This document shows, one piece after another, positions 9,411 through 53,933 of a DNA stretch of 64,000 bases (the stretch's first letter is position 1; each line of letters starts with the position of its first letter). The notes beneath the pieces were generated by a model, which was not told where the DNA came from, made no database searches, and saw only the letters and a list, made by a program, of their open reading frames with translations. Both the position numbers and the translations under genes were made by a program. This stretch comes from Archangium violaceum. GTDB taxonomy: Bacteria; Myxococcota; Myxococcia; Myxococcales; Myxococcaceae. Location of the stretch: assembly GCF_016859125.1 (NCBI RefSeq), contig NZ_CP069338.1, forward strand, positions 12,217,501-12,281,500, in the 5' to 3' direction.

Positions 9411-9425
9411 CGAGCACCCTGCCAT

Positions 9426-9441
9426 TCCAAGCACCGTGCCA
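9426..9441 (-). promoter_or_regulatory. Sigma-54-like -24/-12 element upstream of hemN
   Basis: On the minus strand the sequence reads TGGCACGGTGCTTGGA. Against the sigma-54 consensus TGGCACG-N4-TTGCA it matches at every position except the -12 C, which is G. The predicted start of transcription near 9415 leaves almost no leader before ATG 9410 but about 47 nt before ATG 9368. The missing -12 C lowers confidence. Confidence 0.35.
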
Positions 9442-9479
9442 GCGCCGAGCCCTCGGCCCCCCCCATTCCGACTGCGTTT

Positions 9480-9502
9480 CCGGGCGCAAGGGCTGCGCCC
9501 GG
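9480..9502 (-). terminator. Hairpin after ccoG
   Basis: A perfect 9-bp stem (CCGGGCGCA with TGCGCCCGG) and 5-nt loop lies between ccoG and hemN. No T-run follows on the minus strand, so it could end ccoG transcription only with help or act as an mRNA 3' stabiliser. Confidence 0.35.
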
Positions 9503-9538
9503 ACGCAAGCGTTGCGCTTCAAACAACCATTCGCCCGG

Positions 9539-10951
9539 CTACCGGCCCGGAGTGGGAGGCCCCAGGAAGCGGGCTTCCAGCTGCTTCACCTGCCCGGACG
9601 CCTGGTCTGTGACCTGGATCTGGAAGGTGAAGGGGAAGCGCAGCCCCCGCTCCACGGTGACGAAGAGGGGCAGCCGGAAGCTCTCCAGGGAGCCGAGCTT
9701 CACCTCCTGCTGTGCCACCACCACGGAGGCCGGTACCGGGCTGTCGACCCGCACCGTGAAGGTGGACTCGAGGGGATTCTTGTTCACCAGGTGCAGCTCG
9801 AACTGATTGCGCACCGTGGTGCCCTCCAGGAAGTAGGGCAGGCCCTGGAAACGCAGCAGGTTGGCCTCGAAGGGCGTGCGGCCCACCAGGCCCACAGTGA
9901 GCGCGATGGCGGAGACCAACAGCAGGCCCCCGTAGAGGAGCAGACGCGGGCGGATGACCCGCCGCTGCTGCCCCGCCAGCCCGTTGAGCGAGTCGTAGCG
10001 AACGAGGCCCTTGGGACGACCCAGCTTCTCCATCACCTCGTCACAGGCGTCCACGCACTGCGCACAGGCGATGCAGTCCATCTGCAGGCCATTGCGGATG
10101 TCGATGCCGGTGGGACAGGCGGTGACGCACTTGCGACAGTCCACGCAGTCGCCCTGGCGCGGGGCCTCCGGAGCCCCGAGCTTCGCCTTCACCAGCCGGC
10201 CACGGGGCTCACCGCGGGCAATGTCGTAGCCGATGATGAGCGAGTCCCTGTCCTGCATGGCCGACTGCAGGCGCCCGTAGGGGCAGAGCACCACGCACAG
10301 TTGCTCGCGGAACCAGGCGAAGTTGAAGTACAGCGCGCCCGTGACGGCCATGGCCCAGGCGAAGGGGACGCCATGCCCGCCCGGCCCCTCGCGCACCATG
10401 GTATCCAGGTCCTTCACGGAGACGAAGAGCGCCAGCGCCACGTGCGCCAACAGCCACGACACGAGGAGGAAGGCCCCGTGCTTCGCCACCGCGCGTATCA
10501 CCCACTCCGGCGTCCACGGCCCGGCGGCCATCCGCAGCCGGCGCTCGCGGGGCCCGTCGATCCACCGTTCTACCCGTCGGTAGACGCCCTCGAGGAACAC
10601 CGTCTGGGGACAGGCCCAGCCGCACCACACCCGGCCGAGCCACGCCGTGGCGAAGAGCAGGGAGAAGCCGGCGGTGGTGAGCAGGAAGAGGACGATCCAG
10701 AAGTCCTGCGCGTTGAAGGTGCCCCCGAAGAGGTAGAAGCGGCGCGCGGCCACGTCCAGGTGCACGGCGGGATGGCCGCCCACCCGGATGAACGGCAGCA
10801 CGACATAGATGGCGATCAGCACCGCATAGACGATGCGCCGCCAGTGGACGAAGCGGCCTCGCACATCCGAGGGGTGGATGGCCACGCGCGAGCCATCCGA
10901 CCGGATGGAGGAGAGGTGCCCGGTATCCGGCCCTGGAGCTCGAGGTTGCAT
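9539..10951 (-). CDS. ccoG: Cytochrome c oxidase accessory protein CcoG
   Basis: A 470-residue membrane iron-sulphur protein needed for copper handling during cbb3 oxidase assembly. Several transmembrane helices are visible from about residue 38 (IVYAVLIAIYVVLPFIRV), with the conserved WCGWACPQTVF (~108-118) and LCVVLCPYGRLQ (~228-239). Two ferredoxin clusters follow: CVDCRKCVTACPTG (~271) and CIACAQCVDACD (~296). The C-terminal ~115 residues form the IG-like FixG domain. The start follows GGGGAGGGCGT. It is the last gene of the cco operon, 10 nt after ccoP. Confidence 0.93.
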   Translation of the reverse strand: MQPRAPGPDTGHLSSIRSDGSRVAIHPSDVRGRFVHWRRIVYAVLIAIYVVLPFIRVGGHPAVHLDVAARRFYLFGGTFNAQDFWIVLFLLTTAGFSLLFATAWLGRVWCGWACPQTVFLEGVYRRVERWIDGPRERRLRMAAGPWTPEWVIRAVAKHGAFLLVSWLLAHVALALFVSVKDLDTMVREGPGGHGVPFAWAMAVTGALYFNFAWFREQLCVVLCPYGRLQSAMQDRDSLIIGYDIARGEPRGRLVKAKLGAPEAPRQGDCVDCRKCVTACPTGIDIRNGLQMDCIACAQCVDACDEVMEKLGRPKGLVRYDSLNGLAGQQRRVIRPRLLLYGGLLLVSAIALTVGLVGRTPFEANLLRFQGLPYFLEGTTVRNQFELHLVNKNPLESTFTVRVDSPVPASVVVAQQEVKLGSLESFRLPLFVTVERGLRFPFTFQIQVTDQASGQVKQLEARFLGPPTPGR

Positions 10952-10961
10952 ACGCCCTCCC

Positions 10962-11510
10962 CTACTGCTCCGGCTCGCCCTGGGGAGCCTTGCCGGGCAC
11001 GCGGGTGTTCTTGAGTGTCAGCACGTAGGCGACGATGGAGCGCACGCGCTCGGCGCCCAGCGTCCGCTCCCAGGCGGGCATGCCCTTGGCCACCACGCCC
11101 TCGGCCACCGTCCTGTGGATGTCCATCGGCTTGCCGCCGTGCAGCCAGAACTCGTCCGTGAGGTTGGGGCCGATGAGCCCCTCGCCCTTCTGGCCATGGC
11201 AGGCCGCGCACTGCTGCGTGAACTGCGTCTTGCCCTGGTCCACCGCCAGGGGATCCTGCATCAGCGCGAGCAGCGTCTCGTCGGACGTGGGCTTGCCGGA
11301 GGCGGCCTTGCGCGCGGCCTCGGCGGCTTCGGCCTTGTACACCTCGAGGGAGCCGGGGCCCGTGCCGCTCACGTGGTAGTAGAACCAGTAGCCGAAGGCG
11401 AAGACGATGGTGGTCCAGAGGATGAACAACCACCACCGGGGCAGGTGGTTGTCCATCTCCTCGATGCCGTCATAGATGTGGAGAACGCCCGGCTTGTCAC
11501 TCGAGCTCAT
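10962..11510 (-). CDS. ccoP: cbb3 oxidase subunit CcoP, single-haem form
   Basis: A 182-residue membrane-anchored cytochrome c. The N-terminal FixP_N part has the IYDGIEEMDNHLPRWW motif (~12-27) and one transmembrane helix (LFILWTTIVFAFGYWFYYH). Only one haem-binding site is present, CAACH (~100), with GMPAW supplying the Met ligand. Typical proteobacterial CcoP is ~300 residues with two haems, so this is a short form. The start follows GGGAGGAGCC and overlaps the end of ccoQ by 14 nt. It passes electrons from soluble cytochrome c to CcoO/CcoN. Confidence 0.9.
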   Translation of the reverse strand: MSSSDKPGVLHIYDGIEEMDNHLPRWWLFILWTTIVFAFGYWFYYHVSGTGPGSLEVYKAEAAEAARKAASGKPTSDETLLALMQDPLAVDQGKTQFTQQCAACHGQKGEGLIGPNLTDEFWLHGGKPMDIHRTVAEGVVAKGMPAWERTLGAERVRSIVAYVLTLKNTRVPGKAPQGEPEQ

Positions 11511-11709
11511 GGTGGCTCCTCCCGCCGCGAGAGTCGGAAGTCACCGCGCCCGGCTCGGCCAGCGGCAGCCGCGCGAGCGCGTCGTAGTCCTGCCCTCGAC
11601 GCGCGAGCATCACCCACGCCGTCACGCCGAGGAAAACAGCGAAGAAGAGAAGAAGGGTGAAGAGCGGGAGATGGACCAGGTCCATGCCCTCGTAGAATTG
11701 GCGCCACAT
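11497..11709 (-). CDS. ccoQ: cbb3 oxidase subunit CcoQ
   Basis: A 70-residue protein with one transmembrane helix (LPLFTLLLFFAVFLGVTAWVML, ~14-35) followed by the ARRGQDYDALARLPL segment typical of the small CcoQ/FixQ subunit. The ATG at 11709 shares its A with the stop of ccoNO (TGATG), and the end overlaps ccoP by 14 nt, so the three are translationally coupled. CcoQ stabilises the oxidase complex. Confidence 0.85.
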   Translation of the reverse strand: MWRQFYEGMDLVHLPLFTLLLFFAVFLGVTAWVMLARRGQDYDALARLPLAEPGAVTSDSRGGRSHHELE

Positions 11710-14072
11710 CAGGGAGTCCCTCCCACCGTCGAGGCCGTCTTGATACCGCCCGGAGCCTGCTGGATGTCCTGGGGCCCGCGTCCGAGCCGCTGCAGGTAGG
11801 AGATGATGGCCACCATCTCCGAGTCCCACGTCACCTCGATGCCCTGGCTGGCCAGGTCCGCGACGATGGTCTCCGCCTGGGCCTTCTGACGCGCCTCGGC
11901 CCCATCGACGTCGGTGTTGGTGTACGGCACACCGAGCTTCTGCATCAGCGCCAGCTTCTTGGGCGCCAGCTTCACGTCGATCCTGTTGTCCGCGAGCCAC
12001 GCGTACGACGGCATGTTGGAGCCGGGGCTGGTGGCGCGCGGATCCATCAGGTGCGTGTAGTGCCAGAGGTTGGGGTACTTGCCGCCCACGCGGTGCAGAT
12101 CCGGACCGGTGCGCTTGCTGCCCCACTGGAACGGGTGATCGAAGATGAACTCCTCCGCCCGGGACACGTCGCCATAGCGCTGCGACTCGGCGAGGAAGGG
12201 ACGGATCATCTGCGAGTGGCAGACGTAGCAGCCCTCGCGCACGTACAGGTCACGCCCCTGCAGTTCCAGCGGGGAGTACGGCTGCTGCGCCTCGCCGTGA
12301 GCCGGGACCGCCTGCTTGACGAGGATGGTGGGCAGCAACTCCGCCACACCGCCGATGAGGATGGCGAGCAGGGTGAGCACGGTGAAGGCCAGCGGCCGGC
12401 CCTCGATGAGGGCGAACCAGGAGGGCCCACCGGACTCGCGGTTGCGGCGGGCGATGATCCACGCGAACTCACCCAGCGCCACGATGGCGCCCATGATGGC
12501 GATGGAGCGCACCGGGCCGGACCAGCCCAGGAAGACGCTGATGCCGATGATGGCCAGCGCGAACAGGAGCGGCCAACCGGTGACCACGGCCACCCAGGCG
12601 GGCTTGCCCGCGACCACGGACTCGGGAGCCTTCTCCTCCACCACCACCGTGGTCTCACCGTCCACGGCCTGGCCGGAGTGGGCCGTCTTCCAGAGGTTCC
12701 ACACCATCAGGAAGAAGCCGAGCAGGTAGAGCGAGCCACCGAGGAAGCGGACGATGTACATGGGCCGGATGGCGATCAGCGTCTCCACGAAGCTCGGGTA
12801 GAGCAGCGTCCCGTCCGGGTTGGTGGCGCGCCACATGAGGCCCTGGTTGATGCCCGAGGCCCACATCGCGACCATGTAGAGCAGGATGCCCACCGTGGCC
12901 GTCCAGAAGTGCAGGTCCGCGGCCTTCACCGAGTGCAGCTTCGTGCCGTACAGCCTGGGCACCAGCCAGTAGAACATGCCGGCCGCCATGAGGCCGTTCC
13001 AGCCCAGGGCGCCACCGTGCACGTGGCCGATGATCCAATCCGTGTAGTGGCCGAGCGCGCTCACCGACTTGATGGAGAGCAGCGGGCCCTCGAAGGTGGC
13101 CATGCCGTAGAAGGTGACACCGGCGATGAGGAACTTGATGACGGGCTCCTCACGCAGCTTGTGCCACGCGCCGCGCAGGGTGAGCAGGCCGTTGAGCATG
13201 CCGCCCCAGGAGGGGGCCCATAGCATGACGCTGAAGATCATCCCCAGCGACTGCGCCCAGTCGGGCAGCGCGGTGTACAGCAGGTGGTGCGGACCGGCCC
13301 AGATGTAGATGAAGACCAGGGCCCAGAAGTGGATGATGGAGAGCCGGTACGAGTAGACCGGGCGCTCGGCCGCCTTGGGCAGGAAGTAATACATGATGCC
13401 CAGGATGGGCGTGGTCAGGAAGAAGGCGACGGCGTTGTGGCCGTACCACCACTGCACCAGCGCGTCCTGCACACCGGCGAAGACGGAGTAGCTCTTCAGC
13501 GGGCTGAGTGGCAGCGCCAGGCTGTTGACGATGTGCAGCACCGCCACGGTGATGATGGTGGCGATGTAGAACCAGATGGCGACGTAGAGGTTCTTCTCGT
13601 TGCGCTTCGCCAGCGTCCAGAAGAAGTTGATGGCGAACACCACCCAGATGAGCGCGATGGCGATGTCGATGGGCCACTCGAGCTCGGCGTACTCCTTCGA
13701 GGTGGAGATACCCAGAGGCAGCGTCACGGCCGCCGCGACGATGATGGCCTGCCACCCCCAGAAGTGGATCTTCGAGAGGAGATCGGACGCCATCCGCGTC
13801 TTCAGCAGGCGCTGGGTGGAGTAGTAGACGCCGGCGAACATCATGTTGCCCACGAACGCGAAGATGACCGCGTTGGTGTGCAGCGGGCGCAGGCGAGAGA
13901 AGGTCAGGTAGGGAACGCCGAAGTTGAGCTGCCACCAGGCCAGCTGGGCGGCGACGATACAGCCCACCAGCATGCCCACCACGCCGAACAGGATCGACGC
14001 GGTGATGAACCGCCGGGTGGTGGTGTCGTCGTAGACGATGCGTTGCTGTTGCACGAGATCACCTCGGGACAT
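11709..14072 (-). CDS. ccoN: cbb3 oxidase, fused CcoN-CcoO
   Basis: A 787-residue fusion of the catalytic subunit I and the monohaem subunit II of cbb3-type terminal oxidase. Residues ~25-470 are the 12-helix CcoN with haem/Cu ligands: H in RPLHTNA, the WWYGHNAV His-Tyr region, HH in GPHHLLYT, and HVHGGALGW. Residues ~540-787 are CcoO: a transmembrane anchor, then CYVCHSQ (~614-619) and the Met in GSNMPSYAWL. In most proteobacteria these are two genes. It starts directly after the ccoS stop and has no leader of its own. High oxygen affinity makes the enzyme suited to microaerobic conditions. Confidence 0.95.
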   Translation of the reverse strand: MSRGDLVQQQRIVYDDTTTRRFITASILFGVVGMLVGCIVAAQLAWWQLNFGVPYLTFSRLRPLHTNAVIFAFVGNMMFAGVYYSTQRLLKTRMASDLLSKIHFWGWQAIIVAAAVTLPLGISTSKEYAELEWPIDIAIALIWVVFAINFFWTLAKRNEKNLYVAIWFYIATIITVAVLHIVNSLALPLSPLKSYSVFAGVQDALVQWWYGHNAVAFFLTTPILGIMYYFLPKAAERPVYSYRLSIIHFWALVFIYIWAGPHHLLYTALPDWAQSLGMIFSVMLWAPSWGGMLNGLLTLRGAWHKLREEPVIKFLIAGVTFYGMATFEGPLLSIKSVSALGHYTDWIIGHVHGGALGWNGLMAAGMFYWLVPRLYGTKLHSVKAADLHFWTATVGILLYMVAMWASGINQGLMWRATNPDGTLLYPSFVETLIAIRPMYIVRFLGGSLYLLGFFLMVWNLWKTAHSGQAVDGETTVVVEEKAPESVVAGKPAWVAVVTGWPLLFALAIIGISVFLGWSGPVRSIAIMGAIVALGEFAWIIARRNRESGGPSWFALIEGRPLAFTVLTLLAILIGGVAELLPTILVKQAVPAHGEAQQPYSPLELQGRDLYVREGCYVCHSQMIRPFLAESQRYGDVSRAEEFIFDHPFQWGSKRTGPDLHRVGGKYPNLWHYTHLMDPRATSPGSNMPSYAWLADNRIDVKLAPKKLALMQKLGVPYTNTDVDGAEARQKAQAETIVADLASQGIEVTWDSEMVAIISYLQRLGRGPQDIQQAPGGIKTASTVGGTP

Positions 14073-14258
14073 TCATTGCTGCGGCGTGGAGTCGGAGGAC
14101 TCCGCCCGGGAGGGGCGGGCGGTGTCGTCCTCGAGCGGGAAGAGGGCCAGGCGGTCGGAGTGCTCGTAGTCCCGGTGCCGCACGCTGAAGGCGTAGAGCA
14201 GCACCGAGCCCACCACGAGCATCAGGCTGACGAAGACCTGCAAGACGATGACATTCAT
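14073..14258 (-). CDS. ccoS: cbb3 oxidase maturation protein CcoS
   Basis: A 61-residue protein with a single N-terminal membrane helix (VIVLQVFVSLMLVVGSVLLYAFSV) and the following RHRDYEHSDRLALFPLEDD, the usual CcoS pattern. CcoS is required for insertion of redox centres in CcoN. Its ATG overlaps the ccoI stop by 4 nt and is preceded by AAGGAGGTG; its stop abuts the ccoNO start. Confidence 0.88.
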   Translation of the reverse strand: MNVIVLQVFVSLMLVVGSVLLYAFSVRHRDYEHSDRLALFPLEDDTARPSRAESSDSTPQQ

Positions 14259-16669
14259 GCGGGCACCTCCTTCAGCGCCCGCGGCTTCTCGCTGGCCGCG
14301 TGCTGGCGGCTGGCGGAGAGGCTCGCGAGGGTGAAGAGGATGAGGGAGAGGGAGCTGAGCGGCATGACCACCGCCGCGCGCAGGGGAGTCATCAGACCCG
14401 CGAGACTCACCGACACCGTCACCACGTTGTAGACCAGGGAGACGCCGATGATCCGGCGCACCACCTGGCGCAGCCGGCCCGAGAGCTCCAACGCCTCGCG
14501 GATGGACGAGAGCCCCTCGCCCATGAGGAAGAAGTCGGACTTGCCCGGCAGCACCGGCCGGTCGATGGCGGGCGTACCCGCGCAGAAGGCGCGCTCGAAG
14601 GCGAGGCTGTCATTGACGCCATCGCCCAGGTAGAGCGTGTCCGCCTGCTCGATTCGCGCCACCGCCTCGGCCTTGTCCTCGGGACGCTGGCCACCGAGCG
14701 CGTGCTCCACCGGTACGCCCAGCGCCCCGGCCATGGCACGCACCCGCTCGGGCGCGTCGCCGGAGATGAGCCACACCTCCTGGCCCGCCTCGCTCAGCGC
14801 TTGAATCTCCCGGCGCGCATCGGCACGCACGGACTCGCGCAGGGCGAAGGTGGCCAGCGGCTGGCCCTCGCGAGCAAGGACGGTCCCCTCCAACCCCGTG
14901 GCCCCAGGTGCCGCCCACGCGGGAGCACCCAACCGCCACGTCCCATCCTCCCGGAGCAACTCCAGGCCCTGCCCGGGGTGCTCCGTCACCTGAGCGCCGG
15001 CGGAGAAGCGCGCGCCCGTGCGGGAGAGGGCCGCGGCGAGACAACGGCTCACCGGGTGGTTGCTGCGCGCGGCCATGTCGAAGGCCACGTCGCGAGTCCC
15101 GGGCGCGAGCGCGTTCACGGCCTCGCGGTCCACCAGCTCGAGCCGGCCGAGCGTCAACGTCCCCGTCTTGTCGAAGAGCACCTTGCGCACGCGGGGAAGC
15201 CGGTCCAGTAGATCCTGGCTGCGCACGAAGAGGCCGAGCCGGCGCAGGCGCGTCTGGGTGAGCTCGTAGGCGAGCGGCACGGCGATGCCGATGGCGCAGG
15301 GGCACGTCACCACGAGGAGGGCCACCGCCACCTGCAGCGCCTTGTCCTGACCCTGGGGCAGCCAGAGCGCGAGCCCCAGCCCGGAGACGAGCAACACGGA
15401 GAGCACCCAGCGGCGGGACACCGCGTTCCAGAAGCGCGCATGCGCGGGCACCCGGCCGGGCGCGGCGGGCGTCTGGCGAAGCAGGGCCACCAGCGGAGAG
15501 TCCTGGAAGTCCGTTCGGGCACGCAGGTGGGCGGCGGCACGGGCCGCGTTGAAGGCCCCGGCGGGCACCTCCCCTCCCCTCTCCACCGCGCGCACATCGG
15601 GCTCACCCGTCACCCAGTCGGTGGAGAAGCTGGCGCGTGCGTCGAGCAGCTCGGCGTCCACGGGCACCAGCTCGCCCGGGGCGATGACGAGCACATCCCC
15701 CGCGCGCAGCTCGGCGGCGCGCACGGTGACGAGCCTGTCCCCCTCCTGCCTGCGGGTGAAGAGGCCGTCCGCGCCATCATCCTCCAGGAGGAAGCGGCGG
15801 TTGCGCTCGAGGACGCGCTGTTGAAGCCAGCGGCCCACCAACATCAGGGTGACGAAGGTGTTGAGCGTGTCGAAGTAGGCGAGGTCCCCCCGGCCATCCC
15901 GCGCCTTCAGCAGCGAGGTGGCGAAGACGAGCAGGATGCCCAGGGCGATGGGCAGGTCCAGGTGGAGCACGCCGCTGCGCAGCCCGCGCCAGGCCGAACG
16001 GAAGAAGGGCCAGCCGCCCACCAGCACCACGCCGGTGGAGAGCCACACGCTGAGCTGGCTGAAGAGGGAGAAGACCTCGCCGTCGGCGGGCGTGAGCCCC
16101 ACGTAGAAGCTCACCGAGAAGAGCATCACGTTCATCGTGATGGCGGCGCAGATGCCGAGCCGGATGGGCAGGTCGTGCGAGGCGGACTCGGAGCGCTTGC
16201 GGCTGGGGCCGAAGAGGTAGCCGAAGCCCTCGACGGAGCGGAGGAAGGCGGCCACGTCGAGGGCGCCCTTGCGCCACGCGAGCCGCACCTTGCCGAGCGC
16301 CGGATTCACGGTGAGCGAGGCCCCACCGGGCTGACGGCGGAACAGCTCGTTCATCAGCCAGACACATGCGGCGCAGTGGATGCCCTGCACATCCAGCTCG
16401 AGCGCACAGACGGAGCCGGTGGAGGACTCGGCGCGGGCCACGAGCGGCTCCAGCCAGGCGAAACCCCGGTCCTGCTTGGGTTCGGGCGCCGGGGCCGCCT
16501 TGCCATCGGCCAGCGAGTAGTACCGGGTCAGACCCTGGTCCACGAGGAGACGGTGGACGGCCTCGCAGCCCGCGCAGCAGAAGTCCTTCAGCGACGCGCC
16601 CTCGGGGACGGGGCTGCCGCAGTGACGGCACGAGGCCGAGGGCTGCTCTGCTGGCTGGGAGGCCGGCAT
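14255..16669 (-). CDS. ccoI: Copper-transporting P-type ATPase CcoI
   Basis: A heavy-metal P1B-ATPase of 804 residues that supplies copper for the cbb3 oxidase. The N-terminus has a Cys-rich motif (CRHCGSP, CCAGC) typical of CcoI/FixI, then a metal-binding domain with GIHCAACVW. The membrane CPC motif is in TCPCAIGIAVPL, the phosphorylated Asp in FDKTGTLTLG and the hinge in GDGVNDS. ATG 16669 gives the normal N-terminus; upstream in-frame ATGs would run into the divergent gene's start region. It is the first gene of the cco operon, so the promoter must lie at about 16670-16720 or inside the divergent gene. Confidence 0.9.
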   Translation of the reverse strand: MPASQPAEQPSASCRHCGSPVPEGASLKDFCCAGCEAVHRLLVDQGLTRYYSLADGKAAPAPEPKQDRGFAWLEPLVARAESSTGSVCALELDVQGIHCAACVWLMNELFRRQPGGASLTVNPALGKVRLAWRKGALDVAAFLRSVEGFGYLFGPSRKRSESASHDLPIRLGICAAITMNVMLFSVSFYVGLTPADGEVFSLFSQLSVWLSTGVVLVGGWPFFRSAWRGLRSGVLHLDLPIALGILLVFATSLLKARDGRGDLAYFDTLNTFVTLMLVGRWLQQRVLERNRRFLLEDDGADGLFTRRQEGDRLVTVRAAELRAGDVLVIAPGELVPVDAELLDARASFSTDWVTGEPDVRAVERGGEVPAGAFNAARAAAHLRARTDFQDSPLVALLRQTPAAPGRVPAHARFWNAVSRRWVLSVLLVSGLGLALWLPQGQDKALQVAVALLVVTCPCAIGIAVPLAYELTQTRLRRLGLFVRSQDLLDRLPRVRKVLFDKTGTLTLGRLELVDREAVNALAPGTRDVAFDMAARSNHPVSRCLAAALSRTGARFSAGAQVTEHPGQGLELLREDGTWRLGAPAWAAPGATGLEGTVLAREGQPLATFALRESVRADARREIQALSEAGQEVWLISGDAPERVRAMAGALGVPVEHALGGQRPEDKAEAVARIEQADTLYLGDGVNDSLAFERAFCAGTPAIDRPVLPGKSDFFLMGEGLSSIREALELSGRLRQVVRRIIGVSLVYNVVTVSVSLAGLMTPLRAAVVMPLSSLSLILFTLASLSASRQHAASEKPRALKEVPA

Positions 16670-16717
16670 CGGACCGGGCCCCTTGCGAACGGCATGCCCA
16701 TTGCCATGCACCGGGGC

Positions 16718-17407
16718 ATGACCCCGGCATTTCCCTTTCTCGAAAGCGTATGGACGGGCGCGGTGGGAGCCCTGGTGGTGGGCATCACCGGCAGCGTGCA
16801 CTGCCTTCTGATGTGCGGGCCGCTGGCGTGCGCGGGACTGCCGGGGGTGAAGGGCCCGGAGCGGTGGCGCGCGGTGCTCGCCTACCAGAGCGCCCGAGTG
16901 GGCTCGTACGCACTGGTGGGCGGGCTGCTGGGGGCGTTGGGAGGAGGGGTGACCCAGGCCCTCGCGGTCTCGACGCGGCCCTATCTGCCGTGGGTGATGG
17001 CGGCGGCGCTGGTGGCCTCGGCGCTGGAATTGGGCAAGCGGCTGCGCCCCCTCCCGGGGCTGTCCTACCTGGCCGGTGCCGTCACCCGGGCGAGCGCAAA
17101 GTTTTCGCTTTTGAGCAAATCGGGCGCAATGGGTGCGGTAACCCCGCTCCTGCCGTGCGGCCTGCTCTACGGCGTGTACGCGGCGGCCTTGGCGAGCGGC
17201 TCCTTTGGAGGCGGAGCCCTGTTGATGGGAGCGTTCGCGCTGGGCGGGCTCCCGGCGCTGCTGGGGGCCCAGCTCCAGACGGGCTTATGGCAACGGAAAC
17301 CGCGCATGGCGGAGTTCGCGCTGAAACGCGCGGTGCCTCTGCTGGCCGCGGCGGTGCTCATCTATCGGGCGGTGGGCGTCAGCGCGGGCCACCCAAGCTG
17401 CCACTGA
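16718..17407 (+). CDS. TauE/SafE-like sulfite exporter family membrane protein (CcoH-like)
   Basis: A ~229-residue polytopic membrane protein of the family annotated as 'sulfite exporter TauE/SafE', often found beside cco genes as the ORF called CcoH2/YccA-like. Seen here are ITGSVHCLLMCGPLACA near the N-terminus, AVTPLLPCGLLYGVYAAA (~125-142) and a C-terminal helix. The Cys/His-containing MCGP and PCGLLY motifs suggest metal (copper) handling, an inference. The start is uncertain: ATGs at 16694, 16706 and 16718 are in frame. It is divergent from ccoI with at most 48 nt between them, which implies shared control. Confidence 0.8.
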   Translation: MTPAFPFLESVWTGAVGALVVGITGSVHCLLMCGPLACAGLPGVKGPERWRAVLAYQSARVGSYALVGGLLGALGGGVTQALAVSTRPYLPWVMAAALVASALELGKRLRPLPGLSYLAGAVTRASAKFSLLSKSGAMGAVTPLLPCGLLYGVYAAALASGSFGGGALLMGAFALGGLPALLGAQLQTGLWQRKPRMAEFALKRAVPLLAAAVLIYRAVGVSAGHPSCH

Positions 17408-26397: not shown

Positions 26398-26413
26398 TGG
26401 CCCCCCAGTTGCA
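26398..26413 (+). promoter_or_regulatory. Sigma-54-type -24/-12 promoter of amtB
   Basis: TGGCCCCCCAGTTGCA has GG and GC separated by 10 nt, TGGC at -24 and TTGCA at -12. The predicted start of transcription near 26424 leaves a ~40-nt leader before ATG 26464. Control of ammonium transporters by sigma-54 is common in other bacteria. Confidence 0.65.
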
Positions 26414-44909: not shown

Positions 44910-46076
44910 CTACGTGTGGTGGTGCAGGCTCTCCACGAGGTACGGATCGTTGCGCGGAATCAGCGGCACCGCGCCCACCGTCCTCGTCACCGTCAGCACG
45001 AACAGCGCCCCCAGGCCCAGCAGGCCCGCCACGTCCCACACGCCGATGCCGGCGTATTCGGGCATGTTGGCCGGGGCGATCATCAGGTGCAGGTCCAACC
45101 ACCGCCCCGTCAGCATGACGCCGGCGACGAAGCACAGGTGGGCCGGGTTGCGCTTGGCGGGCTTCGGTAGCAGCAGCACGAACGGCAGGGCCCAGTTGAG
45201 CACGACGTTCATGAAGAACGGCGCCCCCCAGCCATGGTTCATCCGCTGGATGAAGTAGACGGTCTCCTCCGGGATGTTCGCGTACCAGATGAGCAGGAAT
45301 TGGGAGAACCACAGGTACGCCCACAACGTGGCGAAGCCGAACATCAGCTTGCCCAGGTCGTGCAGGTGGCTGGTGTTGACCTCCTTCATCAGCCCCGCGC
45401 GCTTCAGCAGGATGACGGCCACGGCGATGGCCGCCACGCTCGACTCCAACATCCCCGCGATGTTGTAGAGCCCGTAGATGGTGCTGAACCAGTGCGGCTC
45501 CAGGCTCATCAGCCAGTCGAAGCTGGCCAGGCAGAAGGTGAGCGCGAACAGCACCAGGAAGAGCGCTGACGTGGCGACGTTGCGCCGCGTGGGCTCGGCC
45601 GAGGACTCCGCGTCCTGGGCCAGTGAGTTCTTCCGCAGCCGCCAGGTGAAGAAGGCCCAGAGGGCCAACATCACCGCCATGCGGATGGCGAAGCCCGGTG
45701 CGTTGAGGAAGGCGGCCTTCTTGTGTAGCAGGTGGTCCGCCTCCATCACCCCGGGGCGAGCCCACAGGTACAGCGAGGGCAGGCCCGCGAGCACCACCAG
45801 CAGGCTCGCCGCACCCACCGGGACGTAGGAGGAGAAGGCCTCGGGGACGCGCTTGAGGACGGTGTACCAGCCCGCGTTGGCCACGGCGTTGAGCGCGAGG
45901 AACACCGCGCCGCCCAGCGCGAGCGTGAGGAAGAAGAAGCCGTTGGTCAGCAGGCTGGAGAAGCCGCGGGTGGGTTCCAGCGCCAGGCCCGCGCCCAGCC
46001 CGAGCAGGCCGAGCGCCGCCACGACAAGGCTGGCCCGGCGGAGGTTGGGGCCGACGTCGATTCCCGAGGAGCTCAT
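44910..46076 (-). CDS. actF: Alternative complex III subunit ActF
   Basis: A 388-residue polytopic membrane subunit (about ten helices) of alternative complex III, the quinol:electron acceptor oxidoreductase that replaces cytochrome bc1. It resembles the NrfD-like fold: SLLTNGFFFLTLALGGAVFLAL (~40-61), RRNVATSALFLVLFALTFCLASFDWLMSLEPHW (~175-207) and GRWLDLHLMIAPANMP (~336-351). Its ATG overlaps the actE stop by 4 nt. Last gene of the act operon. Confidence 0.88.
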   Translation of the reverse strand: MSSSGIDVGPNLRRASLVVAALGLLGLGAGLALEPTRGFSSLLTNGFFFLTLALGGAVFLALNAVANAGWYTVLKRVPEAFSSYVPVGAASLLVVLAGLPSLYLWARPGVMEADHLLHKKAAFLNAPGFAIRMAVMLALWAFFTWRLRKNSLAQDAESSAEPTRRNVATSALFLVLFALTFCLASFDWLMSLEPHWFSTIYGLYNIAGMLESSVAAIAVAVILLKRAGLMKEVNTSHLHDLGKLMFGFATLWAYLWFSQFLLIWYANIPEETVYFIQRMNHGWGAPFFMNVVLNWALPFVLLLPKPAKRNPAHLCFVAGVMLTGRWLDLHLMIAPANMPEYAGIGVWDVAGLLGLGALFVLTVTRTVGAVPLIPRNDPYLVESLHHHT

Positions 46077-46645
46077 GGAATGTCCTTCCGCGCGGTCTGA
46101 GCCGGAGACTGCAACGACCGGATGTAGTGGACGATCTTCCAGCGATCCTCCTGCGCCACCTGAGAACCGTGGGCCGGCATCAACCCCTGTCCCTGGGTGA
46201 TGATGTGGAAGAGCTGCCCGTCGGCGAGGCCACGGGCGTGCTCGGCCAACAGCGATGGAGGCCGGGGGAAGCGCGCGGCCACCAGGCCGTCCCCGAGTCC
46301 GCCCCCGCCATGGCAGTGCGAACAGTAGCGATTGAAGGCCACCTTGCCGCGCGTCAGCACGGGCTCCGAGGCCTCGAAAGGATTCTTCAGCTCCGCGGCG
46401 GCGCGGGTGGCCTCCTCGGGACCCGGGCCGTAGCGCAGGGGCGAGTAGCCTCGGGGAATGCTGCCCGGCGCGGGCGCCATCAGCGTCTTGCCGTCACGGG
46501 TGTTGGGGTTGGGTGCGTAGCTGTCATACGGCACGGAGCTGTACATGTCCGGCGCGTACTCGAGGTTGGGCTGGGACACGTCCCGCTCGCAGCCCCACTG
46601 AAGGGCCGCGGCGAGCACACCGGTACCGACGAGGAGCCGCTTCAC
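46073..46645 (-). CDS. actE: Alternative complex III cytochrome c subunit ActE
   Basis: A 190-residue monohaem cytochrome c lipoprotein. The signal ends LQWGC (Cys19), then a Tyr/Pro-rich stretch, and the haem site is CSHCHGGGGLGDG (~108-120); Met in GQGLMPAHG is the probable sixth ligand. It carries electrons from the ActA/ActB haems and clusters to the oxidase. Its start and stop overlap neighbours by 4 nt each. Confidence 0.9.
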   Translation of the reverse strand: MKRLLVGTGVLAAALQWGCERDVSQPNLEYAPDMYSSVPYDSYAPNPNTRDGKTLMAPAPGSIPRGYSPLRYGPGPEEATRAAAELKNPFEASEPVLTRGKVAFNRYCSHCHGGGGLGDGLVAARFPRPPSLLAEHARGLADGQLFHIITQGQGLMPAHGSQVAQEDRWKIVHYIRSLQSPAQTARKDIP

Positions 46646-47154
46646 GACGCCACCTCCATCTGCTCCACCTCCAGCGCTCCATGGCGCTGGAGCAGGTCCT
46701 TCACCTTCGCGTCCGTTTCGTCCGCGCGCAGTGCCAGGACGAAACGGTCATCCGTCACCCGGGGCAGCGCCTCCCGCGTGCTGCCAGGGAAGCTCTTCGT
46801 GCGCAGCAGGAAGGCCGCCACGGTGAACAGGCCCGCGAACAGCACGGTGAGCTCGAAGGCCACGGGGATGAACGCCGGGAAGGAGTTGAAGGGCTTGCCA
46901 CCCACGTTGAGCGGCCAGCTCACCACCGACGTGTAGTACTGCAGCGACAGCGCCGACGTGGTCCCCAGCAGCCCCGCCCCGAAGCACACCCAGGTGAGAC
47001 GCGAGGACTTCAACCCCATGGCCTCGTCCATGCCGTGAATCGCGTACGGCGTGTAGACATCGTGCACCGCGTACCCGGCCTCGCGAGCGGCCCGGGTGGC
47101 GTCGAGGATGTGCTCCTCGCTGTCGAAGTAGCTGAGAAGGACGGACTGGTTCAT
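46642..47154 (-). CDS. actD: Alternative complex III subunit ActD
   Basis: A 170-residue protein with two membrane helices ([20 protein letters not shown] and [19 protein letters not shown]) and soluble ends. The N-terminal [20 protein letters not shown] and [16 protein letters not shown] are the DUF3341 signature of ActD. ATG 47154 overlaps actC by 4 nt. Confidence 0.9.
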
Positions 47155-48638
47155 ACCGGCATGTCCTTTCGCACCGCCACCGCCGCCAGGGCCGGCGCGG
47201 GCATCTGCACCGGCTCCTCGGCCGGGTGCTCGTGCGGAGTCTCGGAGCCATGGGCCGCCTGTCCGGCCTGCGCCGGGGCATGGCCCCCGCGGGCGAAGGC
47301 CGCCACGCTCTTCACCTCTCCGATGGAGATGATGGGCAACACGCGGGTGAACAGCAGGAACAGCGTGAAGAAGAGGCCGAACGTGCCCACGAAGGTACCC
47401 ACCTCGACGACCGTGGGCGTGTACATGGACCAGCTCGAGGGCAGGAAGTCCCGGTGCAGCGACGTCACGATGATGACGAAGCGCTCGAACCACATGCCCA
47501 CGTTGATGACCAGCGACAGCACGAAGATGGCCGCCGGCGACGTGCGCACCTTCTTGAACCAGAACAGGTGCGGCGACACCACGTTGCACGTCACCATCGT
47601 CCAGTACGCCCATGCGTACGGTCCGAAGGCCCGGTTCATGAACGTGAACTTCTCGTACGGGTTGCCCGAGTACCAGGCGATGAAGAACTCCGTCCCGTAG
47701 GCCAGCGACACGATGCCACCCGTGACGATGATGACCTTCGTCATGTTCTCGAGGTGGCGAATGGTGATGAGGTGCTGGAAGCCGAGGACCTCGCGGGTGA
47801 TGATCATCAGCGTCAACACCATCGCGAAGCCGCTGAACACCGCGCCGGCGACGAAGTAGGGCGGGAAGATGGTGGTGTGCCAACCCGGGATGACCGACGT
47901 CGCGAAGTCGAACGACACGATGGTGTGCACGCTGAGCACCAACGGCGTCGCCAGACCCGCCAGCAGCAGGTACACCGTCTCGTAGCGGTGCCAGGTGCGC
48001 GACGAGCCGTTCCACCCGAACGACAGCGCCTTGAAGATGCGCTTCTTCAGCCCCTTCGCCCTGTCACGCACGGTGGCCAGGTCGGGGATGAGGCCGAAGT
48101 ACCAGAACACCGCCGAGATGGTGAAGTACGTGCTGATGGCGAACACGTCCCACAGCAGCGGCGAGCGGAAGTTCACCCACAGGGTGCCTCGGCTGTTGGG
48201 GTACGGCAGCACCCAGAACGCGTTCCACGGCCGCCCCATGTGGATGACCGGGAAGAGCGCCGCGCACATGACGGCGAAGAGCGTCATCGCCTCCGCGGCG
48301 CGGTTGATGCTCGTTCGCCACTTCTGCCGGAAGAGGAAGAGGATGGCGGAGATGAGCGTGCCCGCGTGGCCGATGCCCACCCAGAACACGAAGTTGGTGA
48401 TGTCGAAGGCCCAGCCGATGGTCTTGTTCAGACCCCACACACCGATACCGGTGGCGACCTCGTAGGAGACCATCCCCACGCCCACCGCGAGCGTGACGAC
48501 CGCCAGGGCGAAGGCCACCCACCATTTCGTGGTGGGCTTGCGCTCCATGGGGGCGCAGATCTCCTCGGTGAGCTGTCCGAGGGTGCGCTCCTCGCTGACG
48601 AGCGGCACCCGCAGGGGGGAAGTGTGCTGGTTGCTCAT
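47151..48638 (-). CDS. actC: Alternative complex III quinol-binding subunit ActC (NrfD-like)
   Basis: A 495-residue NrfD/PsrC-type membrane protein with about ten helices. Recognised segments: [26 protein letters not shown] (~103-128), [17 protein letters not shown] (~151-167), [30 protein letters not shown] (~250-279). It holds the quinol site next to the ActB 3Fe-4S/4Fe-4S clusters. The C-terminal tail is Pro/Ala/His-rich. ATG 48638 overlaps the actB stop by 4 nt. Confidence 0.93.
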
Positions 48639-51613
48639 GTCGCGCTCCCGTTCCCGGTGTTGCGCACCTTCGTGAGGTACGTCACGGCCGGTCCGATGTT
48701 CAGTTCCTCCAGCAGCCGGTAGGCGCGCCCGCTCTTCGCCAGCTTCGCCACATCGCTGTTCGGGTCGTTGATGTCGCCGAAGTGGATGGCCCGGGCCGGG
48801 CAGCTCTGCTGACACGCGGTGCGGATGTCTCCGTCACGCAGCTCCCGCCCCTCGCGCTTCGCCAGGGCCTTGCCCTCCTGCACGCGCTGCACGCACAGCG
48901 AGCACTTCTCCATCACGCCACGCGTGCGCACCACCACGTCCGGGTTGAGCACCATGCGCTCGATGGGCTCGTCGTGCTTGTAGTCGAACCAATTGAAGCG
49001 GCGGACCTTCGTGGGGCAGTTGTTGGCGCAGTACCGCGTGCCCACGCACCGGTTGTAGACCTGCTGGTTGAGGCCCTCGCTCGAGTGCACCGTCGCGAGC
49101 ACCGGGCACACCGTCTCGCACGGGGCGTTCTCGCAGTGCTGGCACATCATCGGCTGGTGCACCACCCGCGGCGCGTCCGGCTCGCCCTCGTAGTACCGGT
49201 CGATGCGCATCCAGTGCATCTCGCGCTGCCGCCGCGCCTCGTCCTCTCCCACGATGGGGATGTTGTTCTCCGCCTGGCAGGACACCACGCACGCCGAGCA
49301 GCCCGTGCACGCGCTCAGGTCCACCGCCAGCGCCCACTTGTGCCCCTTGTACTCGTGGCCGGACCAGATGGAGAGCGGGTGGCCGCCTCCGTGGCCCTCC
49401 TCCTTCTCATTGCCCGCGCTCGGGTTGGCGAGGAACTCCGCCAGCTCCGCCTCGCGCACGAGCCCGCGCCCCTCCATGGACGCGTGTATCTGGGACAGGG
49501 CCAGCGGCTTGTGCTCGGGCGTCACCCGCAGCCGCACCCCGCCGAGCGCCGCGCGGCGCACCTTCCCGTTCGTCAAAGAGGCCAGGCCGAAGGCGTTCTC
49601 CCCCACATCGTTCCCGATACGTCCCACCTTCGTCCGGCCGTAACCCATGGCGAGGCCCAGCGCCCGCGGATGCGTGCCCGGCTGAACCAGCGCCGGCACC
49701 GCGAGCGTCCTCCCTCCAATGCCCACCTCCACCACCTGCCCGTCGCTGATGCCCAGCTTCGAGGCCGTGGAGGGCGCCACACAGAGGTAGTTGCCCCAGG
49801 TGGCCTTGGAGATCGGATCCGGCATCTCGTGCAGCCAGCCGTTGTTGGCCAGCGCGCCGTCCCTCAAGCCCACCTTTTGATACAGAACCAACTCGAGCTC
49901 CCCCGCCGTCACGGCCGAGCCCCTCAGCGCCGCCGCCACGCTCTCGGGGCGGAACGCGGGCGCCTCGGTCGTCGTCCGCGGCAACACCACCACCACGCCC
50001 TGACGCACCGACTCGTCCCAGAAGGACTGGAAGCCCGTCGCCACGTTCGCGCGCGGGAAGACCTCGGCCTCCCAGCGTGCACGCAGGAAGTCGTCATACG
50101 GCTGCTCCACCCCCGCCCACCTCAGCAGGGACTCCATCGCGCCACGCGTCTCGTACAGCGGAGACACCACCGGCTGGCGCAGGCCCAGCACACCGCGCCG
50201 GGGCTCGGCATCGCCCCAGGACTCCAGCGGCGTGTGATCCGGCGCGTGGAAGCCCACCAGCGAGGCCGTCTCGTCGAGCCGATCATTCGTGGCCACCGTC
50301 ACCGCCACGTCCTTCAGCAGGCCCGCCAGCGCCTCGCCCTTCGGGTGCGCATAGGCCGGGTTGACGCCGTGGAAGAGGACGGCGCCCACCTGCTTCGCCT
50401 CCAGCTCGCCGAGCAGCTCGCCAAAGGACATCGCCCCCTCGTCCAGGGTGAGTCCCCCGGAGATGGAGACCGTGGTGCCGGCGTTGCCCAGCAGCTCGTT
50501 GGCCACGTTGGCCAGCACGTAGGCGGCGGGCTCGTCTCCTCCGCACACCACCAGCGCCTTCTCCTTCGCGGCCCACAGCTCGCCGGCCAGCATGTCCAGC
50601 ACGTCGGTGGATACCCGCGCCTCGGGCACTCCCGTGAGGCCGGCCACGTCACGGCCCGCCTTCTCCGCCAGCCGCTTCACCAGCCCCGCCAGCGCGGGCA
50701 CCAGGTCCGAAGGGGCCACCGGGACACGCCGGTCGGCGCTCGCGCCCGTCAGCGACATCAGCGGCTCGAGCTGCCAGTGCCGCGCCATCTCCCGCTTGCC
50801 CGCCGCGTCCCGGGCCGAGGTGTACTGGCGGGTGAAGGCCACCGGAGACACCCAGGTGCCCAGGAAGTCGGCGCCGAAGCTGGCGATGACCTTCGCCTGG
50901 TCGAAGCGGTAGTCCGGCACCAGCCGGGTGCCGTGCGTGAGGCGGTATGCCTCGGCGATGGCCTCCAGCTCCCCCGTGGCGTCGAAGCGCACCGTGCGCG
51001 CGGTGGGGAAGGCGGACAGGAAACGCGCCACGGCGGCCTCGGCGGTGGGCCCCATCACCCAGGGCAGGACGAGCCGGATCGCCCTCCCCTCCCCCGCCAG
51101 CTTCCGCAGCCCCTCCGTCACGGCCTTGTCCAGGTCCGCCCACGCGGCCCGGCTGCCCCCCACGGACGGCCAGCGGGAGCGGTTGGCGTCATACAGGGAC
51201 AGCACCGACGCCTGGCCCACGGCGCACACGCCGCCACGGGACACCGGGTGCTCCTCGTTGCCCTCCACCTTGATGGGGCGCCCATCGCGCGTCTTCAGCA
51301 ACACGCCGCATTGGGCGCTGCACGCACCGCAGGTGGACGCGTACCAGAGGGCCAGGCCCGGGGTGAGCTCGTCCGGCTTCGCGATGAAGGGCACCGCCTT
51401 CTGCACCGGGGCGCGCTGGCAGGCCACCATGGCCGCCGCGGCGCTCAGGCCCATCACCTTGAAGAAGTCACGGCGCGAGCTCTGGTCCGGCGCCTGGGCC
51501 GCCACGCCCACGGGGAGCTCCTCGGCGAACTCATCGCGGGACCGTTCGAGCAGCGCCGGCTCTCCCGCCCGCGCGGCCAGGCTCTGCCAATACTTGGGTG
51601 TCGTCTCGGACAT
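48635..51613 (-). CDS. actB: Alternative complex III iron-sulphur subunit ActB
   Basis: A 992-residue protein. A twin-arginine motif [11 protein letters not shown] (46-56) and following hydrophobic stretch ending VAC indicate Tat export. The N-terminal ~730 residues are related to molybdopterin oxidoreductases ([19 protein letters not shown]), a domain that in this complex lacks the cofactor. The C-terminal ~250 residues are a four-cluster ferredoxin unit: [38 protein letters not shown] and CSLCVQ. It links ActC quinol oxidation to the ActA/ActE haems. 12 nt separate it from actA. Confidence 0.95.
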
Positions 51614-51625
51614 GGTGCGCGTTCC

Positions 51626-52252
51626 TCAGCGGTGGCAGGCGGAGCAATCGGTGGGAGGATTCAGGGAGCGAGGCGCCGGAGTGACGGGCGCGGTCGCCCT
51701 GGCCACTCCCGACGCGGAGGCCATCAGCACACCGGATGCCAACGGCGGCACCGGCGCCTGGGCCTGCGACTCCTGTGTCTGGCGGTGGCAGTCCAGGCAC
51801 CAGCCCATCGTCATGGGCTCCACCTGCTCCAGCCGCACCATCTCCTGCACCGGGCCGTGGCACTTCTGGCACTCCAGCCCGGCCGTCACGTGGTTCGCGT
51901 GGTTGAAATACGCGTGGTCCGGCAGCCGGTGCACCCGCACCCACTCGATGGGCTTGTTCTCCTTCACCGCCCGGGTGAGCTTCTGGATCTCCGGCGAGTC
52001 CGTCTTCACCTGGGTGTGGCAGTTCATGCACACGCCCGCGTGGGGAATGCCGGCATGCCGGCTCTTCTCCGCGCCCACGTGGCAGTACTGACAGTCGATC
52101 TCATAGTGGCCGGCGTGCACCGCGTGCGAGAACGCGATGGGCTGCGCGGGCATGTAGTTCTGGTTGTTGTTCACCGGCGTGGTGTCACAACCGCCCATCG
52201 CGAGCGCGGCCAGCACACCGGAAAGCAGCGAGGCTCGAGTCGAGTCGATCAT
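51626..52252 (-). CDS. actA: Alternative complex III pentahaem cytochrome ActA
   Basis: A 208-residue cytochrome c with five CxxCH sites: CQYCH (~54), CMNCH (~75), CQKCH (~128), CLDCH (~152) and CSACH near the C-terminus (~203). The N-terminus is a signal ending AMGGC, so it is probably a lipoprotein here. Extra His ligands occur in FSHAVHAGHY and YFNHANHV. It overlaps the NarI-like gene by 4 nt. It is the electron-exit side of the complex. Confidence 0.93.
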   Translation of the reverse strand: MIDSTRASLLSGVLAALAMGGCDTTPVNNNQNYMPAQPIAFSHAVHAGHYEIDCQYCHVGAEKSRHAGIPHAGVCMNCHTQVKTDSPEIQKLTRAVKENKPIEWVRVHRLPDHAYFNHANHVTAGLECQKCHGPVQEMVRLEQVEPMTMGWCLDCHRQTQESQAQAPVPPLASGVLMASASGVARATAPVTPAPRSLNPPTDCSACHR

Positions 52253-52905
52253 GGGGTGACAATCCCGCCCTGGGCGGCGGTCTCCCGCCGGTTGGACACG
52301 AGGGGGTGCGCGGGCGTCGAAGCCAGCCAGCGGGTGATGGGCCAGGCGAGCAGCAGCGCCAACACACCGAAGAGGTGCATCCGCACGGTCAGCGGCAGCT
52401 GGGCCACGAGCGTCGCGTCCGGCTGCAGCGTCACCAGCGAGCGCAGGTACGGCACCACCACGCTCACGTACCAGGCCGAGGCCCAACGGTACGCCACGGC
52501 GATGTAGAGGCCGTTGATCACCTCGGCCAGCAGCAGCACCTGGAAGGGCAACCAGGCGCGGGAGCCGGGCTCGCGGCTGGAGAGCCGATGGGTGATGCTC
52601 GCCACCAGGCCCCAGGCCAGCATCATCCCGCCGATGAGCCCCACCACCTCCAGGAGGAAGAGGCGCATGGGCGAGCGGATGAAGAGCTGCACCGGGTGCG
52701 GCAGGAGGAAACAGGCCGCGTGCCACAGCAGCATGATCAGGGCGCCCACCAGCAGGGACACCGCGGCCGAGCCGGTCCCCTCTCGCTCCACCCACCGCCT
52801 CATCCAGACGGAGAGTCGCTCTCGGTTGCGCAGCCAGGCCGGCACGCCCACGGCGAGCGCCAGCACCACGTAGGGAAGGGAATCGTAGAGGAACGTGTCG
52901 CTCAC
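52249..52905 (-). CDS. NarI-like membrane protein at the head of the act operon
   Basis: A 218-residue protein with five predicted helices, starting at GTG 52905 (GAGG 7 nt upstream). The first helix LYDSLPYVVLALAVGVPAWLRNRERLS and the order of later segments (LLWHAACFLLP, FLLEVVGLIGGMMLAWGLV, HLFGVLALLLAWPITRW) follow the gamma subunit of respiratory nitrate reductase, a dihaem cytochrome b. No narGHJ genes are near. Its 4-nt overlap with actA suggests an added b-type haem subunit delivering electrons to or from alternative complex III (inference). Confidence 0.65.
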   Translation of the reverse strand: MSDTFLYDSLPYVVLALAVGVPAWLRNRERLSVWMRRWVEREGTGSAAVSLLVGALIMLLWHAACFLLPHPVQLFIRSPMRLFLLEVVGLIGGMMLAWGLVASITHRLSSREPGSRAWLPFQVLLLAEVINGLYIAVAYRWASAWYVSVVVPYLRSLVTLQPDATLVAQLPLTVRMHLFGVLALLLAWPITRWLASTPAHPLVSNRRETAAQGGIVTP

Positions 52906-52921: not shown

Positions 52922-53755
52922 TCAGTCCTTCGCGCGGCCATGGCCGCCCAGGACGATGCCAATGAAACCCAGGGCGACGCCCAACCCCACGAAGCCCAGG
53001 TAGAAGAAGTCCCGGTCCTTGCGCGGCGGCGTGCCGTCCCGCGAGACCTGCGCCAGATAGGCCTTGAGCTCGTACTGCTCCGCGTCCGTCAGCGGCGCCT
53101 TCCCGTAGAGTTCCTTCATCAGAGGGAAATCCATCTCCTTCAGAGCGGGCGTCATCTTCCGCTCGCCCAGCCGGGCGAAGGAGAAGGTCAGGTCTCGCGC
53201 CAGCGTCCCTCCGCCCACCACGCCGATGTCACGCACGTTGTGGCAGCCGATGCAGGGCGGGCCCCCATTGGCCAACGCCACCCGCCCCTCGAAGAGCTGC
53301 CGCCCGTGTTCGATCTCCTCGGGCGAGGCATCCGAGGCCAGCTTCGGCCCGGAGGCTCCCGGCTGGCAGCTGCCCTTGTCGGCACAGTCCCGGAGGAACG
53401 CGAACAGCCCCTTGCGCTCATCGTCGGAGAGCTGCTGGTCCGGCATCCGGATGCCGTTGAACTTCGTCAGGAGCTCGTTGGCGACCGGATCGCCGCCGTC
53501 GATCATCGCTCCCGGGCTCTCGAGGAACGTGGTGACCCAGGACTCCTCGCGGCGCGTCAGCACGCCCATCAGATCCGGACCAACCCTGTCCCCCTGGCCC
53601 ACGGTGTGGCAGCTCGCACAGCGCTGGGAGAAGAGCTGAGAGCCCTCGGGAACCCCCTGCGCCGCAGCGAGCGGAGAAACGAGCAACACCAGCATCGGCA
53701 AGGCGGCAATGGCCAGTGCTCGCAGCTGGCGTCGGCCAGGGACGTGTGTACGCAT
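52922..53755 (-). CDS. Membrane-anchored dihaem cytochrome c
   Basis: A 277-residue protein: signal peptide ~1-32 (ending LAAAQG), first haem CASCHTVGQGD (~47-57), second haem CIGCHNV (~166-172), and a C-terminal transmembrane helix (FFYLGFVGLGVALGFIGIVLGG). The arrangement suggests two fused c-type domains held at the periplasmic face. It is the first gene of the operon with the NarI-like protein and actA-F, 16 nt upstream of the former. A sigma-54-type promoter precedes it. It may shuttle electrons between the b-type subunit and alternative complex III. Confidence 0.85.
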   Translation of the reverse strand: MRTHVPGRRQLRALAIAALPMLVLLVSPLAAAQGVPEGSQLFSQRCASCHTVGQGDRVGPDLMGVLTRREESWVTTFLESPGAMIDGGDPVANELLTKFNGIRMPDQQLSDDERKGLFAFLRDCADKGSCQPGASGPKLASDASPEEIEHGRQLFEGRVALANGGPPCIGCHNVRDIGVVGGGTLARDLTFSFARLGERKMTPALKEMDFPLMKELYGKAPLTDAEQYELKAYLAQVSRDGTPPRKDRDFFYLGFVGLGVALGFIGIVLGGHGRAKD

Positions 53756-53814
53756 CGCGGCGTGCCCCTCCTCTCGGAGACCCCGAGCCCCTCGCTCGGT
53801 TCAGCGCGCCGCAG

Positions 53815-53830
53815 TGCAACCAGGGGGCCA
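53815..53830 (-). promoter_or_regulatory. Sigma-54-type -24/-12 promoter of the alternative complex III operon
   Basis: On the minus strand TGGCCCCCTGGTTGCA has GG and GC 10 nt apart with TGGC and TTGCA intact. The predicted transcript start is near 53804, leaving a ~49-nt leader before ATG 53755. Confidence 0.6.
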
Positions 53831-53886
53831 GCCAGCCGATCGGGTTCTGCTCCGAGGGGAAGCCCGCTCCACACGAAGTGTCAGGT

Positions 53887-53933
53887 GCGCAGCATTTGCG
53901 CCTCGCGCATTCCCGACGCGCAGCATTTTCCGC
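53887..53933 (-). promoter_or_regulatory. Paired repeats upstream of the act operon promoter
   Basis: GCGCAGCATTTGCGC (53887-53901) is a dyad with 5-bp perfect arms. GCGCAGCATTTTCCGC (53918-53933) shares its first 11 bases. They start 31 nt apart and lie about 57-105 nt upstream of the -24 element, a usual position for activator sites of sigma-54 promoters. Confidence 0.45.

Follow-up and report, generated by a model that had tools for sequence, protein, structure and literature searches.

A predicted NmpR-type sigma-54 promoter on one of three alternative complex III operons in Archangium violaceum

The window analysed here, a stretch of 64,000 nucleotides (G000:C1:12217501-12281500) from the 12.68-Mb, single-contig genome of Archangium violaceum, carries an alternative complex III (act) operon that is very likely under sigma-54 control. 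We read its upstream region, with good confidence, as a sigma-54 promoter at which the activator NmpR would bind two enhancer sites, so that the operon would most likely encode a low-oxygen isoform of complex III, newly placed in a known hypoxia regulon. What we observed is the anatomy of the promoter, its conservation, its restriction to one isoform, the presence and co-distribution of nmpR, and a dyad identical to the published consensus; from these we infer the action of NmpR on the act promoter.

The operon starts at 53755 on the minus strand and is complete by profile and homology matches, in the order diheme cytochrome c, ActA, ActB, ActC, ActD, ActE and ActF. The original prediction had named it an act operon, and the ActA-ActF gene set is indeed present, ActD included, with ActE and ActF named by position and resemblance:

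52922..53755, minus strand: first gene, diheme cytochrome c (two CxxCH), ATG start
51626..52795, minus strand: ActA pentaheme cytochrome, open reading frame as listed, with homology from about codon 187
48635..51613, minus strand: ActB, molybdopterin-like plus 4Fe-4S
47151..48815, minus strand: ActC, NrfD family
46642..48015, minus strand: ActD, PF11821 in the C-terminal part of the open reading frame
46073..46645, minus strand: ActE-like monoheme cytochrome c (one CxxCH), named by position and resemblance
44910..46076, minus strand: ActF-like membrane subunit, named by position, without an NCBIfam match

Since homology begins that far into the ActA frame, its true start probably lies near 52.24 kb. 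The ActA-ActF order and a PF11821 ActD are common to alternative complex III; the window operon differs in being one of three copies, in its extra leading diheme cytochrome c and in its sigma-54 promoter. The nearest named loci of the first act protein belong to Archangium violaceum (87%), followed by Pyxidicoccus, Hyalangium and Myxococcus.

The -24/-12 consensus of sigma-54 promoters is of the TGGC-N7-TTGCA type. A sigma-54-type promoter had been predicted here, and a consensus box, TGGCCCCCTGGTTGCA at 53830-53815, fits this type with the correct -24/-12 spacing; it starts 75 nt ahead of the first act gene and would place the transcription start near 53804. In the direction of transcription, the elements that precede the ATG are:

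53918..53932, minus strand: distal activator site CGGAA-AATGC-TGCGC (predicted), three mismatches to GCGCA-N5-TGCGC
53887..53901, minus strand: proximal activator site GCGCA-AATGC-TGCGC (predicted), perfect match to the published NmpR consensus
53815..53830, minus strand: sigma-54 promoter TGGCCCCCTGGTTGCA, consensus match with -24 GG / -12 GC spacing
53783..53799, minus strand: 5' UTR hairpin CCGAGC-GAGGG-GCTCGG, conserved
53760..53773, minus strand: ribosome-binding region GAGGAGGGGCACGC, strongly conserved, downstream of the hairpin

The two dyads are 16 nt apart, and the proximal one lies 56 nt from the box. Paired repeats had also been proposed, and GCGCAGCATTT (in operon direction, AAATGCTGCGC) is found exactly at 53887-53897 and 53918-53928, 31 nt from start to start. 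While the pair itself stood, its unit had been drawn too short: what is conserved is a 15-nt dyad, GCGCA-N5-TGCGC, and both repeats are parts of two such dyads, one perfect and one degenerate. This inverted repeat was derived from the sequence alone, before the published consensus was met. The 5' UTR hairpin is kept in 21 loci with a small covariation term (-0.77); an A-U replaces a G-C at one pair in four loci, and a U-A replaces a C-G at another in one locus.

A chance resemblance of box and repeats appears practically negligible. The sigma-54 pattern with one mismatch allowed is, by itself, common in the window (eight matches against 4.2 expected, with eight reached by seven of 100 shuffles), but the pattern of paired GCGCAGCATTT repeats occurs there once and in none of 100 dinucleotide shuffles, and the conservation of the promoter between genera, in our judgement, refutes chance. 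A genome-wide motif search, proposed earlier as a check, located the exact 11-mer GCGCAGCATTT three times in 12.68 Mb: two copies are the window pair, and the third lies inside an open frame that by eye resembles a helix-turn-helix regulator. Perfect sigma-54 matches number only two in the window, the act box and one at 26398 ahead of the gene originally called amtB. Upstream of this second box (26398-26413) there are two palindromes, CCTACGATTTTGTAGG at 26157 and CCTACAAATTCGTAGG at 26283, besides a degenerate copy at 26253; a different activator may bind there.

Conservation was assessed at 34 distinct loci, 21 with a first protein at least 57% identical to that of the window and 13 more distant. 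Duplicates were dropped (L034 = G037, L042 = G035, L043 = G042, L048 = L017, L047 = L015), and L018, L021, L046, L047 and L058-L086 were left out. The 21 closer loci are all distinct act loci of Myxococcaceae, that of M. xanthus among them, and each has a perfect proximal dyad, a gap of 15-16 nt between dyads and an intact TGGCC..TTGCA box at -73 to -79, 52-56 nt past the proximal dyad. The half-sites of the proximal dyad are constant around a variable spacer (AATGC, AATCG, AAAGC, AAGGC), and the distal dyad has two or three mismatches across the set (three in the window, two in M. xanthus). At each of these loci, the score of the pair was reached by at most one of 200 shuffles. The 13 distant loci, not all of them confirmed act operons, showed no dyad pair beating shuffles at 5%; a sigma-54-like string precedes the matched stretch by 26-144 nt in five of them (L015, L016, L017, L019, L050). 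Because the promoter is conserved, sigma-54 control with an upstream-binding activator is strongly supported. The dyads might instead bind a repressor or architectural protein, with act transcribed mainly from another promoter; we consider this very improbable given the nearly constant distance between proximal dyad and box in 21 of 21 loci and the similar layout before unrelated genes.

Which of these genes share the layout bears on the activator. The dyad-pair pattern matched 12 of 58 family genomes, and a related pattern 23 of 195 phylum genomes; the matches L088/L091 and L092 gave no convincing promoter. Further conserved promoters with dyad pair and sigma-54 box precede a second, short hibernation factor gene, hpf (L090, L103, L104), and a D-2-hydroxyacid dehydrogenase (D-lactate dehydrogenase-like) gene (L102, L135, L140, L141, L148), the latter identified by Pfam on L102 only. 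In genus g23, the dehydrogenase promoters have near-perfect dyads and a TGGAGC/TGGTGC..TTGCA box. The short second hpf paralogue of A. violaceum (G000:C1:4463709-4464193; L090, L187) has a sigma-54 box and NmpR-type dyads, and the hpf promoter shows pair and box in six of six genomes of this genus. Outside the genus the hpf pair varies from clear to absent: among 27 hpf loci, the pair was reached by at most 2.5% of shuffles in 14, was weaker in five and was not found in eight. Many family genomes retain the hpf box even with weak dyads or none. The original prediction had suggested a dedicated activator, but the same type of dyad pair is found ahead of published NmpR targets as well as of short hpf and the D-lactate dehydrogenase-like gene, and most likely act is not the only target of the activator.

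The short hpf and the window act type are both missing in four of four g11 genomes and in all of g15 except G053, which has both. From such patterns the distribution of the activator was predicted beforehand: present in G000, G053, g23 and G014, and not in the g15 and g11 genomes G015, G030, G038, G046, G011, G029, G045 and G052. A weight-matrix scan for dyads near the activator genes of the window's own genome (60 loci) brought out no regulator. Scanning the fetched loci for activator genes yielded two close mutual relatives, one in G008 (L205), directly upstream of hpf, and one in G022 (L181), some 10 kb from a cytochrome c / multicopper oxidase target. (This target was considered as the nitrite reductase NirK and ruled out, since the protein matches multicopper-oxidase families in Pfam.) Their best match in the A. 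violaceum genome is G000:C1:10632310-10633656, 74-79% identical, all others among the 60 activator loci being at most 53% identical. The distribution observed for this activator agrees with the prediction in all listed genomes at an E cut-off of 1e-130.

Judged by identity and gene order, this NtrC-type activator is the orthologue of M. xanthus NmpR: the M. xanthus AM003 protein is 86% identical (next best 50%), and the gene order nmpU-nmpT-nmpS-...-nmpR is as published. In A. violaceum, CBS and Usp genes stand beside the activator gene, and the opposite strand encodes a receiver-kinase hybrid, a double receiver and a Protoglobin histidine kinase; with NmpR-, NmpS-, NmpT- and NmpU-like domain orders at the locus, NmpRSTU is encoded in the genome. 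An orthologue (at least 66% identity) is present in 43 of 58 family genomes; G005 (50% identity, E 2e-131) is counted as lacking NmpR, and the E 1e-130 tally of 44 includes it. The first act protein of the window occurs in 18 of 58 family genomes (E below 1e-37), 13 genomes with weak first-cytochrome matches (E above 1e-13) being counted as lacking the window act type. All 18 have an NmpR orthologue and none of the 15 NmpR-less genomes has this act type (Fisher p 0.0014), while 24 of 27 short-hpf genomes have the orthologue (Fisher p 0.017), both p values being optimistic because related genomes are counted as independent. NmpR is also missing from G017 and G033, with hpf promoters lacking both dyads and box, and from G055, whose hpf lacks dyads.

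According to the text of PMC11841059, NmpR is the M. xanthus low-oxygen activator that binds GCGCA-N5-TGCGC, depends on a sigma-54 site and, under hypoxia, activates mxan_4236, and it ends an oxygen-sensing relay, NmpRSTU, as its NtrC-type response regulator. NmpR binding, sigma-54 dependence and hypoxia induction are thus published for other promoters, and the regulon members named there are pilR, mxan_4236, mxan_4246, mxan_3966, mxan_5543 (the cbb3 cluster), mxan_5532 (hemN) and mxan_1578 (PMC11841059). Act shares with this regulon the same dyad, two sites near a sigma-54 box, an orthologous regulator and relay, and respiratory company (cbb3, hemN); it differs in a weaker distal site and in a gap of 15-16 rather than 14-15 nt (PMC11841059). 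Act is absent among the targets named in that text, as are the short hpf and D-lactate dehydrogenase-like genes, and its main text makes no mention of an alternative complex, complex III, quinol, hibernation, ribosomes or a dehydrogenase. The alternative complex is likewise unmentioned in the text seen of PMC6211767 and PMC12753109, and in the open-licence literature we found no paper tying it to a sigma-54 promoter or RpoN.

The published search rule asks for two GCGCA-N5-TGCGC sites with at most two deviations each, and the bound sites described are all perfect at GCA-N5-TGC, with gaps mostly of 14-15 nt and exceptions of 5 and 24 (PMC11841059). The proximal act site has no deviation and carries the core; the distal site has three deviations in the window and two or three in relatives (two in M. 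xanthus), and its core reads GAA-N5-TGC in the window, GTA-N5-TGC in M. xanthus and GCA-N5-TGC in several relatives. This departure of the distal site from the GCA core is the main sequence argument against NmpR, and it is why we only propose act as a member of the NmpR regulon. The window box lies downstream in the same orientation, within 400 nt of the start codon, as in the published search. The M. xanthus act promoter seems to satisfy the published rules, yet act is not among the named targets. Five promoters were found unbound by NmpR, all mismatched in each site (PMC11841059); as the proximal site of M. xanthus act is perfect, act is probably not among them.

Our scan was also applied to the nmpU promoter, reported as NmpR-bound (PMC11841059). 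With two mismatches allowed per site, this positive control gave no convincing pair with box in the 1.7 kb upstream of nmpU in M. xanthus AM003, so that our scan and the published one are not in full agreement, and we lowered our confidence in NmpR slightly on this account. In A. violaceum, the nmp locus holds one dyad pair with a gap of 14 and the box TGGCGTGCTTCTTGCC, though some 1 kb ahead of the nmpU-like gene. A looser pattern, GCGCAN5TGCGCN{12,18}GCAN5TGC, matched 37 of 58 genomes, and in 12 of these a match lay no more than 10 kb from nmpR; with matches in 29 of 43 genomes that have NmpR and eight of 15 that lack it, this pattern is not specific alone. It gave no match in the A. violaceum genome, as the distal act site carries GAA, and its reversed control gave four.

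One alternative is a sigma-54 promoter driven by a different member of the NtrC family with a similar dyad as its target. The genome has 69 PF00158 matches (some partial or weak), so motifs close to this one could occur, and a different NtrC-type regulator is found near the act-type cytochrome gene in five more distant loci, L045, L047, L050, L053 and L054; we nevertheless regard this alternative as unlikely, since the proximal dyad is exactly identical to the published NmpR consensus and the distribution of the NmpR gene matches. The L047-type regulator was considered as the window activator and has no clear orthologue in the genome, its best match being 46% among many similar ones. In the same five loci, this regulator of another subfamily lies within a few kb of the cytochrome gene, a hint that complex III may have come under NtrC-type regulation repeatedly.

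NmpR remains our preferred activator, and the promoter attributed to it marks a single isoform. ActD occurs three times in the genome, indicating three act operons; it also occurs three times in five of six genus members, while 44 of 52 other family genomes have one or two copies. The other two operons, near 848 kb and 3.49 Mb, give ActA-ActF matches that are distant (ActB 35-36% identical). The leading diheme cytochrome had no match in the stretches fetched around them, and the dyad pair was not found upstream of these two operons or of five act operons fetched from relatives; sigma-54-like strings occur upstream of or at some other act operons, without dyads. The original view of a central respiratory complex therefore has to be revised: with three act operons in the genome, that of the window is an accessory complex III isoform, and the NmpR-type promoter is on that isoform only. 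In G003 (L183 near 9648-9890; genome 86% complete) the act-type dyad pair is kept and the first act protein was not found; about 140 nt past the pair, tblastn over a 19-kb stretch shows only a 22-residue ActB-like remnant, and the operon has probably decayed. A hemN gene with its own dyad pair lies 11 kb from this act-type pair.

The window itself also holds a cbb3 cluster, 28 kb from the act operon. At 7450-16801 on the minus strand lie hemerythrin, hemN, ccoG, ccoP, fused ccoNO and ccoI-like genes (the names ccoG, ccoP and hemerythrin were assigned by eye), likely the counterpart of the published M. xanthus NmpR targets. Upstream of hemN there is a dyad pair at 9484-9517, its two sites 4 nt apart, and the sigma-54-like box at 9441-9426, TGGCACGGTGCTTGGA, is imperfect.

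Mechanistically, following the published relay model, a fall in oxygen would switch off the protoglobin kinase NmpU, and NmpS would then phosphorylate NmpR. NmpR would oligomerise on the two dyads and drive RNA polymerase-sigma-54 at the box 56 nt past the proximal dyad, switching on the accessory alternative complex III together with the diheme cytochrome c that leads its operon. This complex would probably feed electrons to the high-affinity cbb3 oxidase, another NmpR target; its low-oxygen role and this pairing are both inferred.

Under FixLJ and FNR, low oxygen switches on high-affinity cbb3 respiration. The scheme proposed here has the same outcome as those systems (named in PMC11841059 for cbb3 oxidases); by contrast, a sigma-54 enhancer-binding protein and a globin kinase would act, and a complex III isoform would be included. 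Whether the NmpR hypoxia programme is wider than published, taking in this isoform, the second short hpf and the D-lactate dehydrogenase-like enzyme, is for us an evenly balanced question. If so, oxygen sensing through sigma-54 would be tied to respiration, translation shutdown and fermentation in supposed obligate aerobes. The proposed control of act would also explain in concrete terms why myxobacteria have several copies of complex III, at least one of which looks reserved for low oxygen, and with a regulator and a sensor named, the hypoxia response of a strict aerobe becomes testable.
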